Shown here piece after piece: positions 59,051 to 63,178 of a stretch of DNA of 64,000 nt. The notes beneath the pieces were generated by a model. That model did not search any database, was not told where the DNA came from, and saw nothing but the letters and a program-made list of their open reading frames with translations. How positions within the stretch are numbered: the stretch's first letter is position 1; the number at the start of each line of letters is the position of its first letter. This DNA is from Nitrosopumilaceae archaeon. GTDB lineage: Archaea > Thermoproteota > Nitrososphaeria > Nitrososphaerales > Nitrosopumilaceae. The position numbers and the translations under genes are program-made. The DNA lies in the NCBI GenBank assembly GCA_028279545.1, contig JANQNN010000008.1:1-64000 (forward strand), written 5' to 3'.

Positions 59051-59527
59051 TTGGCCAAACATAAAAAGAAAACATCAAAACCGACACCTGAGCCTGAAGA
59101 TTCCAAAAAAGAATCTATTGAGGACATTTCCGAAGAAACCCCCGCCATTGATTCAACCGAGGAGCCAAATATTCCTCCCACTGAACCTCCAGTAAATCCA
59201 GTAGAAGATAGCGAAAAAAACAGAAAACTAAACAAATTATTTTGGCTAAGAGTTGGTTTGGCAGTTATCGCAGGGACGATTGCTACTTTCATTTTTGAAG
59301 ACATTGAAGGAGAAGAAAGAAGATGGGCTTCAATAGCTTTCATGATTATCATTTTTGCAGGAACAATAGTAATTGCCAAAGGGATGAAAATGCAATTACC
59401 ATCTTCTGACAGGAAAAAAATTGTTACACAAGGGATTGGTAGTTACATTTTCTTATACTTGTTTACTTGGATTGTAACTTACACATTAGTTAACTCCGGA
59501 AGTGTTTCCAGTGGAATTAATATTTAG
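59051..59527 (+). CDS. Small membrane protein, three TM segments, acidic N-terminus
   Basis: 158 residues from TTG. Residues 1-60 are Glu/Pro-rich and polar; TM segments lie at about 64-82, 93-112 and 130-150. The topology resembles archaeal EMC6-like proteins (weak inference). It stands 31 bases before cbiT and may be cotranscribed with the cobalamin genes. Confidence 0.55.
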   Translation: MAKHKKKTSKPTPEPEDSKKESIEDISEETPAIDSTEEPNIPPTEPPVNPVEDSEKNRKLNKLFWLRVGLAVIAGTIATFIFEDIEGEERRWASIAFMIIIFAGTIVIAKGMKMQLPSSDRKKIVTQGIGSYIFLYLFTWIVTYTLVNSGSVSSGINI

Positions 59528-59558: not shown

Positions 59559-60149
59559 ATGTGGAATTATAAAACTCCAGGAATTCCAGATAATTTTTTT
59601 GAAAGAACAGAAAAAGTCCCAATTACCAAAGAAGAAGTAAGAACTATCCAATTAAGTAAGGCTCGATTATCTCCTGGTCAAGTTGTTTTTGATATTGGAT
59701 GTGGAAGTGGTTCCATATCTATAGAAGCTGCGCTTCAAATTGAAAGCAATGGGAAGGTGATAGCCATTGATTATGATTTGGATGCTATTGAGTTAACAAA
59801 AAAAAATATTGAAAAGTTTGGTCTTTCTAACATTTCAGTAATTTTTGGAAATGCTAAGGAAAAAATTAAGGAATTGGAATTGGCAGATGTAATATTCATT
59901 GGTGGTACTGGGGGTGATACTAAAGAAATCATAGAATTATGTCAAGATAAATTGAAATCTGGAGGAAGGATTGTAATTGGAATCATCTTAATTGAGACTT
60001 TATTTTCAGTTTTAGATATTCTTGATAGGCTACAATTTGGTTCTATTGATATAACTCAAGTTACCATATCAAAGAGTAGGAAAACATCCAAAGGAACCAT
60101 GATGCTTGCTCGAAATCCAGTAACAATTATTTCAGCTACAAAAACTTAA
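59559..60149 (+). CDS. cbiT: Cobalt-precorrin-6B C15-methyltransferase (decarboxylating)
   Basis: 196 residues, Rossmann methyltransferase. VFDIGCGSGSISIEAAL is the SAM motif, and GIPDNFFERTEKVPITKEEVR is the CbiT/CobL-C start. Acts late in corrin ring synthesis, C15 methylation with decarboxylation. Confidence 0.88.
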   Translation: MWNYKTPGIPDNFFERTEKVPITKEEVRTIQLSKARLSPGQVVFDIGCGSGSISIEAALQIESNGKVIAIDYDLDAIELTKKNIEKFGLSNISVIFGNAKEKIKELELADVIFIGGTGGDTKEIIELCQDKLKSGGRIVIGIILIETLFSVLDILDRLQFGSIDITQVTISKSRKTSKGTMMLARNPVTIISATKT

Positions 60150-60184: not shown

Positions 60185-60907
60185 ATGCCAGAACTAATTG
60201 GAATAGGAGTAGGTCCAGGCGATCCCGAGTTACTTACCGTAAAGGCTGTAAATGCAATCCATAATGCCGATGTAATAATGTGCCCTGCCTCCAAAGAAGA
60301 TAGACCTAGCATTGCTCTTTCAGTGGTTTCTTCCCTGATTGATAAATCTAAGAATCAAGAAATTATTCGTTTAATTTTTCCGATGACCAAAAATAAAGAA
60401 TTACTTGAGAAAACTTGGAAAAAAAATGCAGAGATTATGGCATCAAAAGTTCTGTCTGGAAAAAATGTAGTGTATCTTACAGTTGGAGACCCCTACCTGT
60501 ATAGTACCTGGATGTATATGCATAAAGAAATTAAATTAAATCATCCAAATATGAAAATTAGTGCAATTCCGGGAATTGTTTCAATTTTTACATTTGCTTC
60601 AAAAGTTGGCGTAAGCATTGCAGAGGGTGCAGAAAAGGTATCAATAATTCCATCGTGTTATGATTTAACAACTGTAAAAGAGATTGCAAAAAATTCTGAA
60701 ACGATGATTTTTCTTAAAGATGGAAGGTATTTTGATCAAGTAATAGACCTACTCAAAGAATCAGGATTTCCTGAAAATTCTATTTTTGCTATTGGGCAAG
60801 ATTTGGGAACAGAAAATGAAATTATAAGAAAATTGACATTGGGTGAAGTAAATGATGGTACATTGACTTCAAAATATTTCTCAATATTGGTGGTAAAACG
60901 TGTCTGA
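60185..60907 (+). CDS. cbiL: Precorrin-2 C20-methyltransferase
   Basis: 240 residues of the precorrin methylase fold. IGVGPGDPELLTVKA is the SAM loop, TVGDPYLYSTWMYMH and IPGIVSIFTFASKVG follow the CobI/CbiL pattern. Methylates C20 early in the route. Overlaps cbiF by 8 bases. Confidence 0.88.
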   Translation: MPELIGIGVGPGDPELLTVKAVNAIHNADVIMCPASKEDRPSIALSVVSSLIDKSKNQEIIRLIFPMTKNKELLEKTWKKNAEIMASKVLSGKNVVYLTVGDPYLYSTWMYMHKEIKLNHPNMKISAIPGIVSIFTFASKVGVSIAEGAEKVSIIPSCYDLTTVKEIAKNSETMIFLKDGRYFDQVIDLLKESGFPENSIFAIGQDLGTENEIIRKLTLGEVNDGTLTSKYFSILVVKRV

Positions 60908-61664
60908 TGTTTTCTTTGTGGGATGTGGACCAGGCGACCCTGATCTAATAACAATTAAAGCAAAAAAATTAATTCAAAAAGCAGACATCGTTGTTTACTC
61001 GGGCTCGTTAATACCTCCACCAATCCTAAAACTATGTAAAAAGGGGAAACTCCATAATGCTGCTGGGTTAGTTAGAGAAGAAATTTTTGAGATATTATAT
61101 AAAAATGCAAAAAAAGAAAAATTAGTTGTTCGATTACATGATGGAGATCCCTCAATTTATGGTGCTATTAAAGAACAAATTGACAATTTAGAGGAAAAGG
61201 GAATTAATTCTATTGTTGTACCAGGTGTAACAGCATTTTTAGCCTCAGCTGCAGCATTAGAAACTCAACTTACTCTTCCTGGTATTACCCAAACAATAAT
61301 TTTGACAAGAGCAGAATCTAGAACAAAAGTACCAAAAAGAGAAAAGATTTCTGAATTAGCAAAACATAAAGCTACTATGGTTTTTTATCTGAGCGTTCAC
61401 TTGTTACCTAATATTGTGAAAGAAACTCTTGCAGGTGGTTTTAAAAAATCTACTCCCGTAGCTGTAGTTTACAGAGCAAGTTGGAAGGATCAAAAAATTG
61501 TAAAGGGAACACTTGAAGATATTGTAAAGAAAATAAGGGATGAAAAAATTACTAAAACAGCAATTGTAATTGTTAGTAATGTTATTGATTCAAAAACTTA
61601 TGAATATTCAAAGCTCTACGACAAAGATTTTAGTCATGGTTTTAGAAAATCAAAAACTAAATAG
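60900..61664 (+). CDS. cbiF: Precorrin-4 C11-methyltransferase
   Basis: 254 residues from GTG 60900. VGCGPGDPDLITIKA, VVYSGSLIPP, HDGDPSIYGAI and PGVTAFLASAAAL are the CobM/CbiF motifs. Translationally coupled to cbiL. Overlaps the convergent MurI-like gene by 8 bases. Confidence 0.9.
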   Translation: MSDVFFVGCGPGDPDLITIKAKKLIQKADIVVYSGSLIPPPILKLCKKGKLHNAAGLVREEIFEILYKNAKKEKLVVRLHDGDPSIYGAIKEQIDNLEEKGINSIVVPGVTAFLASAAALETQLTLPGITQTIILTRAESRTKVPKREKISELAKHKATMVFYLSVHLLPNIVKETLAGGFKKSTPVAVVYRASWKDQKIVKGTLEDIVKKIRDEKITKTAIVIVSNVIDSKTYEYSKLYDKDFSHGFRKSKTK

Positions 61665-62421
61665 ATAAAAATTGAATTTTATTTTTAATACCAATTCTAT
61701 TAAGATTTTTTGTTAGCTTTCCAGTTTGATCTGAAGAAAATATTTTCAATGAATTTTTTTTTGATTGTCTATTTTTAACAGTTTTTAATATTTTTTCTGC
61801 GACATTATCTGCAGGATCTATAAACTCAACTTTTGGGAATTCTGACTTTAAAATTGGTTTTAAAAAAGATAAATGTGTACTAGATAATGTTACTGTATCT
61901 ATATTATTTTTAGAGAAATTTTCCTTCAATGAACTTCTTATAATTTTTTTACAATACTTTTTATTTTCGATGAAATTTCCCGATTCTACCAATTGAACAA
62001 GGTTTGAAGCATTAATTTTATGTATTTTTATTTTTTTGGATATTTTGCATTTTTTTAAATAATGTGAAAGGGTTCTACTTTTTATAACAACTTCAGTTGC
62101 AAGTATGCCTATGTTATTTGTTTTAGAAATAAGGGAAGCTTTTTTGATAGGAGGATTCACTCCAATAATTTTCTTACTGGTAAGTTCAAGCATAATAGTT
62201 GGAGTATTCGAACCAATTACAATCAAGTCTGGATTAAACTCTGTTCTAAGTAAATCGATGGATTTTTCCATGATTCTCTTTAGCTGTTTTTTTGTTTTTT
62301 TTCCATAGGGAAAATTTTTTCGATCGGCAAAATAGATTATTTCCGTTTTGCAAATTTTTTGGATGGCTCTTATTATTGATAACGAGCCTAAGCCTGAGTC
62401 AAAAACGGCAATCCTTGTCAA
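61657..62421 (-). CDS. MurI/Asp-Glu racemase-like protein lacking both catalytic cysteines
   Basis: 254 residues, glutamate-racemase fold: FDSGLGSLS (D8, S9), FPYGKKT and paired T-H positions. The two catalytic Cys of MurI (ACNT and GCTH) are Ser here: GSNT with S71, and SSTH with S181. With no peptidoglycan expected in this lineage and both acid/base thiols gone, racemisation by the usual mechanism is unlikely. Convergent with cbiF, upstream of cdvB. Possibly a non-catalytic or novel lyase/isomerase. Confidence 0.75.
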   Translation of the reverse strand: MTRIAVFDSGLGSLSIIRAIQKICKTEIIYFADRKNFPYGKKTKKQLKRIMEKSIDLLRTEFNPDLIVIGSNTPTIMLELTSKKIIGVNPPIKKASLISKTNNIGILATEVVIKSRTLSHYLKKCKISKKIKIHKINASNLVQLVESGNFIENKKYCKKIIRSSLKENFSKNNIDTVTLSSTHLSFLKPILKSEFPKVEFIDPADNVAEKILKTVKNRQSKKNSLKIFSSDQTGKLTKNLNRIGIKNKIQFLSI

Positions 62422-62527: not shown

Positions 62528-63178
62528 ATGCCAAATTTCGACAAAACTTGGGCTCGACAAGAGAGTCAAAGTGTAACTGGCAAAATAAAAGATGCAGTAC
62601 AACCTCAAGGTGCATTGAAACCACGAATTCAAACTGCAGTAAACAAACTTCAGGTCCAAATTAGCAAAATGGACTCGATGTTAGGAAAACTGCATGAAAG
62701 AGATGCGCAACTCTTTAAGCGAATTGTGACTGCAATGCAGCAACACGATACTAGCACAAGTAAGGTTTTGTCAAACGAATTAGCTGAAATTCGTAAAGTT
62801 ACAAAAATGCTCGGCAATGCAAGAATGTCATTGGAACAAGTTCAATTACGATTGACCACTATTCATGACTTAGGAGATGCAATGGTAGCAATAGGACCAG
62901 CGATGTCTACAATGAAGGGATTAAAGTCATCACTCGGAAGATTTATGCCTGAAGCAGATTCTGAATTGAATTCAATGACACAGACGCTCAATGGATTAAT
63001 GATGGACTCTTTGGCTGGAGACTCATTTAGTCTAGATACAGATTCTTCAAGCGAAGAAACTGATAAGATCCTACAAGAAGCTTCTGCAGTTGCTGAACAA
63101 CAGATTGGAGATAAATTTCCTTCTGTACCATCTCAAACTGGACTTTCGTCTCAATCTTCTTCCTCTACGTTTGAATAG
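62528..63178 (+). CDS. cdvB: ESCRT-III-like CdvB-family protein, second paralog
   Basis: 216 residues, the same length as the 37608 gene. Shared core: GALKPRIQTAVNKLQVQISKMD and LSNELAEIRKVTKML, with the same Ser/Thr-rich end (DKFPSVPSQTG). A duplication of one ancestor is likely. Which paralog polymerises at division and which is accessory cannot be told. Divergent from the MurI-like gene. Confidence 0.82.
   Translation: MPNFDKTWARQESQSVTGKIKDAVQPQGALKPRIQTAVNKLQVQISKMDSMLGKLHERDAQLFKRIVTAMQQHDTSTSKVLSNELAEIRKVTKMLGNARMSLEQVQLRLTTIHDLGDAMVAIGPAMSTMKGLKSSLGRFMPEADSELNSMTQTLNGLMMDSLAGDSFSLDTDSSSEETDKILQEASAVAEQQIGDKFPSVPSQTGLSSQSSSSTFE

Follow-up and report, generated by a model that had tools for sequence, protein, structure and literature searches.

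Locus and gene

The window, by which we mean the whole 64,000-nucleotide stretch of Nitrosopumilaceae DNA that was analysed, encodes a MurI-like protein of 254 amino acids on its minus strand (61657–62421), with a TTG start and an in-frame stop just upstream. Three cobalamin genes lie on the plus strand: cbiT (59559–60149; TIGR02469, 125.6 bits), cbiL (60185–60907; TIGR01467, 205.5 bits) and cbiF (60900–61664; TIGR01465, 328.7 bits). All three score over their curated cut-offs, as expected from the preliminary description, which had named the neighbours as cobalamin ring methylases. cbiF is convergent with the MurI-like gene, and its 3′ end overlaps that gene by 8 bases. Directly upstream of the MurI-like gene, head-to-head with it, is a CdvB/Snf7-like (ESCRT-III) paralog (62528–63178, plus strand; PF03357, E = 2.6e-4, below the Pfam cut-off). 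Among published proteins, the nearest kin of this CdvB-like protein is probably Nmar_0029 or Nmar_0061; neither polymerised on expression in yeast (PMC3684127). The plus-strand gene at 59051–59527 encodes a small membrane protein that weakly resembles EMC6 (PF19094, 0.0054, below cut-off); of the Nitrosopumilaceae loci examined, nearly all have a gene of this type upstream of cbiT.

Four motifs had been read in the MurI-like frame: FDSGLGS, PYGKK, GSNT with Ser71 and SSTH with Ser181. All are as stated, the first two spanning residues 7–13 and 38–42, and the limits of the frame are exact. The Ser71 codon (TCG, 62209–62211, minus strand) corresponds to the first catalytic Cys of MurI and the Ser181 codon (AGT, 61879–61881, minus strand) to the second. 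Over residues 4–225 the protein matched the NCBIfam glutamate racemase model TIGR00067 with an E-value of 1e-34 and 120 bits, below the curated cut-off of 146.65 bits; some Nitrososphaera-like family members scored 153–166 bits, over that cut-off. Against PF01177, the Asp/Glu/hydantoin racemase superfamily, the score was 29.9 bits (residues 13–208, E = 6e-7) for a gathering score of 31. Glutamate racemase sequences from the PDB matched with E-values down to 1e-21 and placed Ser71 and Ser181 on both catalytic Cys. With these matches, the proposed likeness to MurI is beyond chance.

An AlphaFold2 model, computed from an alignment of 30 relatives without the two bacterial sequences described below, had a mean pLDDT of 92.4 and a pTM of 0.87. 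In a Foldseek search with this model, the top 48 PDB matches were all glutamate racemases (TM, query, 0.71–0.87). The predicted structure has the two-domain fold of MurI, with Ser71 and Ser181 each beginning a helix that comes after a strand, and it bears out the earlier statement that the fold is well kept. This match of the modelled fold settles the kinship of the protein with the Asp/Glu/hydantoin racemase superfamily. Membership in the proline racemase superfamily (DapF/ProR-like fold) was rejected: the PDB matches listed are MurI and Asp racemases, and the parallel is one of mechanistic analogy only.

The serine pair across the family

Relatives were drawn from GTDB contigs and whole genomes and aligned to one profile. 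The 120 family rows that cover both sites come from four archaeal families, two bacteria and the window, some genomes being counted twice, and all 120 carry Ser at both 71 and 181. Canonical MurI rows, nearly all bacterial, are Cys/Cys in 43 of 43. Neither set contained a mixed Ser/Cys or Cys/Ser row, and partial or decayed rows of the family have Ser at whichever of the two sites remains. A single row, from Bacillota, has CGT as its first motif and appears as Gly/Cys when aligned to the profile. The preliminary description had reported Ser for both catalytic Cys in the one protein, asked whether thaumarchaeal homologs share the pair, and named Cys in close relatives as the finding that would speak against it. 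All alignable family rows, the bacterial members among them, proved to be Ser/Ser, and Cys was sought in the 120 rows and not found. Because every alignable row agrees, Ser/Ser is a fixed trait of the family and no isolated mutation or sequencing error. In some Nitrososphaera-like members (L045, L046, L166, L167 and L168) the second motif is CSTH; here a Cys arose one residue before Ser181, off the catalytic position.

Complete switches between MurI and the family occur at three positions only. Besides Cys71 and Cys181, Gly13 is replaced by Ser (62383–62385, minus strand; Ser in 119/119 family rows, Gly in 43/43 MurI rows), so that FDSGxGG becomes FDSGxGS. At two further positions the switch is near-complete, with Leu for Tyr/Phe184 and Pro for Ala74. 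Common to both groups are Asp8, Asp33, Tyr39, Gly40, Thr73, Glu146, Thr182 and His183. Asp8 (62398–62400) and the pair Thr182-His183 (61873–61878), all on the minus strand, are invariant in the family and in canonical MurI; Glu146 (61984–61986, minus strand) is found in 119/120 family rows and 42/43 MurI rows. Mutagenesis of MurI has placed Asp, Ser, Cys and Thr on one face of the active site and Glu, Cys, Thr and His on the other (PMC6927343), and the residues of this set beyond the Cys are all present in the window protein (D8, S9, T73, E146, T182 and H183). The protein thus resembles MurI/RacE (EC 5.1.1.3; TIGR00067) in fold (TM up to 0.87), in the FDSG and PYG motifs and in these helper residues, and differs from it in the substitutions at 13, 71, 74, 181 and 184, at about 20–30% identity.

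Some other positions close to the pocket have drifted. Position 72 is variable within the family, with Asn replaced by Ile, Met or Val in several families; in MurI, Asn72 presumably contacts the alpha-carboxylate of glutamate. Both bacterial members have Ala at 9 and at 73 (Ser9 and Thr73 elsewhere), and the position of MurI Thr112 is mostly Val or Ala. The drift at 72, 9 and 73 speaks against strict conservation of the glutamate site.

In a phylogenetic tree, the Ser/Ser (46 rows) and Cys/Cys (23 rows) sequences were split with support of 100/99, and the same split was recovered with columns 71 and 181 omitted (support 99). The codons are equally uniform: Ser71 is always TCN and Ser181 always AGY, in 120 of 120 rows, bacteria included. 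This pattern fits one double Cys-to-Ser replacement, followed by descent and transfer. Since the codon classes are uniform and a single step separates each of them from a Cys codon, they point to a single event, and the Ser/Ser pair is probably of single origin.

Bacterial sampling covered Bacillota genomes and plasmid and phage records. Two members came from the plasmid collection, one in Fusobacterium vincentii (NZ_CP084075; 43% identity, 2e-37, 146 bits) and one in Phyllobacterium zundukense (NZ_CP104972; 37% identity, 1e-35, 141 bits), the other records listed there scoring at most 83 bits. In F. vincentii the Ser/Ser paralog stands alongside a separate canonical MurI (219 bits, CNT and CTH motifs). 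We found no further Ser/Ser members among the 30 best matches in 399 Bacillota genomes, and none in IMG/VR; matches in phage records were at about 25–34% identity. The tree placed the bacterial pair among the archaea, with archaeal monophyly not rejected (p-AU 0.36). On the best reading, the family is a thiol-free sister subfamily of MurI that was already present in the ancestor of ammonia-oxidising archaea and that a few bacteria also carry. In Phyllobacterium, a PLP-dependent serine/threonine dehydratase-like gene, below family cut-offs, is convergent with the Ser/Ser gene (L090:9805-10866).

Distribution, loss and neighbours

Among 400 genomes of the order, 243 carry the MurI-like gene and 264 carry archaeal amoA; among the good genomes the counts are 149 and 163 of 209, respectively. 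Within the order, both genes are limited to families f1, f2, f3 and f67. This distribution agrees with a published report, which has the gene throughout ammonia-oxidising archaea and almost nowhere among their non-oxidising relatives (PMC12363236). One family match per genome is the rule, and whole-genome searches of the order found no second MurI in these archaea. Unlike the usual context of MurI, the window's genome lacks peptidoglycan Mur ligases: the Mur ligase middle domain PF08245 gave no match there, with positive controls.

The gene has also been deleted, or has decayed, in some complete genomes. At L192 and L193 the MurI-like locus is gone and cdvB and cbiT-cbiL-cbiF are still present, the L193 genome being, we believe, that of Cenarchaeum symbiosum A; at L194 and L195 the gene is a pseudogene beside intact cbi genes. 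The MurI-like gene is therefore dispensable in some ammonia-oxidising archaea. Pseudogenes in two complete genomes could be taken to mean that the gene is decaying or an assembly error, without function. For pairs with measurable dS, however, dN/dS was about 0.11–0.18, indicating purifying selection on the intact gene. Together with the invariance of Ser/Ser and the retention of the helper residues in 120 rows, and with the presence of the gene in 149 of 209 good genomes, this refutes the idea for the family as a whole, and we give it practically no chance.

The same losses bear on the cobalamin genes. The gene is convergent with cbiF-cbiL-cbiT in many genomes, and CbiJ was not detected in Thaumarchaeota (PMC4303638), so a role in cobalamin synthesis, such as the missing CbiJ step, might be imagined. 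Against this, cbiT, cbiL and cbiF are intact at all four loci where the MurI-like gene is deleted or a pseudogene (L192–L195), and the fold is not that of a reductase. The cbi block lies on one side of the gene in f1 and on the opposite side in f2, and the linkage is absent from the bacterial members and most Nitrososphaera-like loci. The genetic link to cobalamin hinted at earlier thus did not hold up; a cobalamin role is extremely unlikely, and we did not judge cbiT to be part of the function.

The divergent CdvB/Snf7-like gene is the most regular partner in Nitrosopumilaceae and f2, where the head-to-head pair is kept, as would suit a protein that works with the ESCRT-III cell-division system. 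Yet all of the 40 genomes tested have a homolog of the cdvB paralog, even where the MurI-like gene is missing. The two genes are unlinked in most Nitrososphaera-like genomes, and the bacterial members live in hosts without ESCRT-III of this kind. Such a partnership is very unlikely.

In Nitrososphaera-like genomes the MurI-like gene is usually followed by hydantoinase/oxoprolinase-like, PRPP synthetase-like and RNase Z-like genes, the last two labelled by eye. In four of six Nitrososphaera-like genomes the gene immediately following is hydantoinase/oxoprolinase A-like (for example L073:7212-9374), and a member of the same Pfam family occurs elsewhere in several Nitrosopumilaceae. This HyuA-like gene was rejected as a functional partner, its distribution not tracking that of the MurI-like gene. 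We found no operon partner conserved across all lineages. Because no tested neighbour tracks the presence and absence of the gene, we read the linkage as inherited gene order and not as a pathway.

Possible functions of the Ser/Ser site

These observations bear on a published claim. The Nitrosopumilus maritimus protein has been called a glutamate racemase with the necessary catalytic residues, and D-glutamate use was proposed in 2025 for ammonia-oxidising archaea (PMC12363236). That protein belongs to the archaeal family described here, and the MurI-like protein of a Nitrosopumilus genome reads ...VVASNTPS... and ...TLSSTHLP..., with Ser at both thiol sites. We take the genome encoding it to be that of N. 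maritimus SCM1; we found no literature on the locus tags Nmar_0060 or Nmar_0062. As judged from the aligned residues, the two residues that transfer protons contradict the statement of an intact catalytic site, although Ser/Ser by itself does not prove the N. maritimus protein inactive. The standard annotation as glutamate racemase, and with it the claim of D-glutamate use, is probably wrong.

Could the protein still be a working glutamate racemase, with Ser bases, that serves the uptake of D-glutamate as proposed (PMC12363236)? The helper residues of MurI are all kept. In MurI, Cys-to-Ala changes abolish activity and Cys-to-Ser changes lower it 1000-fold, and Lactobacillus Cys-to-Ser variants retain about 1/1000 of the activity (PMC6927343). 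Cofactor-independent enzymes with one non-Cys base, such as a Ser/Cys epimerase and Thr/Cys Asp/Glu racemases, are active. The latter, EcL-DER of E. coli and MMP0739 of Methanococcus maripaludis, belong by description to the same superfamily and have a hydroxyl residue in place of a thiol (PMC8142540), but they retain one Cys, whereas the Ser/Ser family retains none: both bases have changed, not one. The N. maritimus motifs (ASNTPS and LSSTHLP) also sit badly with the claimed catalytic residues. Fusobacterium retains a separate true MurI, and it also counts against this reading that the searches turned up neither a second MurI in these archaea nor, in the genome of the window, a Mur ligase domain. 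On balance, this explanation is unlikely.

It is rather unlikely, too, that the protein is a pseudoenzyme that uses the MurI pocket for ligand binding, sensing glutamate or a similar acid without converting it and passing on a signal, for instance within nitrogen assimilation. Both catalytic thiols have been lost while the fold and much of the pocket were kept, and the gene is closely associated with ammonia oxidisers, occurring with amoA in the same families only. However, an inert or structural site would be expected to drift to Ala, Gly or Thr in places, so Ser that never varies in 120 of 120 rows counts for chemistry, as do His183 and Glu146, which archaeal and bacterial members both retain. 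Nor did we find a fused or consistently linked regulator or effector. Since some positions on the ligand side drift but the serines and the acid/base residues that partner them do not, we prefer altered enzyme chemistry to a sensor role.

Our preferred reading, to which we assign a probability of roughly 45%, is that the protein is a catalytic member of a thiol-free MurI sister subfamily, with altered chemistry, and is something other than the cell's glutamate racemase. Both catalytic Cys would have been replaced by Ser once and have remained Ser ever since. The pocket is kept, along with most of its helper acid/base residues, with Asp8 and Thr73 beside Ser71, and Glu146, Thr182 and His183 beside Ser181, and the Ser hydroxyls could be polarised by Asp8 on one side and by Glu146/His183 on the other. 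One-base proton abstraction with these hydroxyls would then replace two-thiol racemisation of glutamate. Candidate substrates are small carboxylates or amino acids whose proton is more acidic or that carry a leaving group; these might undergo elimination or isomerisation. More specifically, and tentatively, the Ser/Ser pair may wholly replace Cys/Cys in an undescribed reaction. This would probably eliminate or isomerise a small amino or hydroxy acid, would be tied to ammonia-oxidiser metabolism, and would be common to a few bacteria. The preliminary description had suggested a changed reaction or a binding role, which appears to be the right frame, with both thiols gone, the fold kept and no Cys in 120 rows.

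There are precedents for such a change. MurI itself can eliminate N-hydroxyglutamate to give 2-oxoglutarate, and in the proline racemase superfamily a Cys-to-Thr change turns an epimerase into a dehydratase (PMC8142540). In that superfamily the Ser/Cys hydroxyproline epimerase 4HypE and the Ser/Thr hydroxyproline dehydratase t3HypD use Ser as a base, and t3HypD, with Ser90/Thr256, performs dehydration in a thiol-free site (PMC4113996). Their fold and substrates differ from those considered here; the precedent is one of how such a site works, and we claim no homology. Several points stand against the altered-chemistry enzyme. As a base, Ser falls far short of a thiolate, positions 72, 9, 73 and that of Thr112 vary, the gene has been lost in some lineages, and it has no universal operon partner. 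One might connect the reaction with hydroxylamine-derived adducts in ammonia oxidisers; the idea is attractive but speculative, and it is at odds with the members from Fusobacterium and Phyllobacterium.

Surveys of D-amino-acid cycling count the gene under K01776, as a glutamate racemase, and ammonia-oxidising archaea are very abundant. If both thiols are absent everywhere, the K01776 counts and the D-glutamate proposal need rechecking. The family is also a natural experiment, a cofactor-free racemase that lost both thiols and yet is still under selection, and the function of a Ser/Ser racemase site is directly testable with one 254-residue protein. One Nitrosarchaeum assembly (BD3), already represented by L010, carries on another contig a second, frame-broken copy of the gene (L032:8001-8749), possibly an assembly duplicate or the result of read errors.
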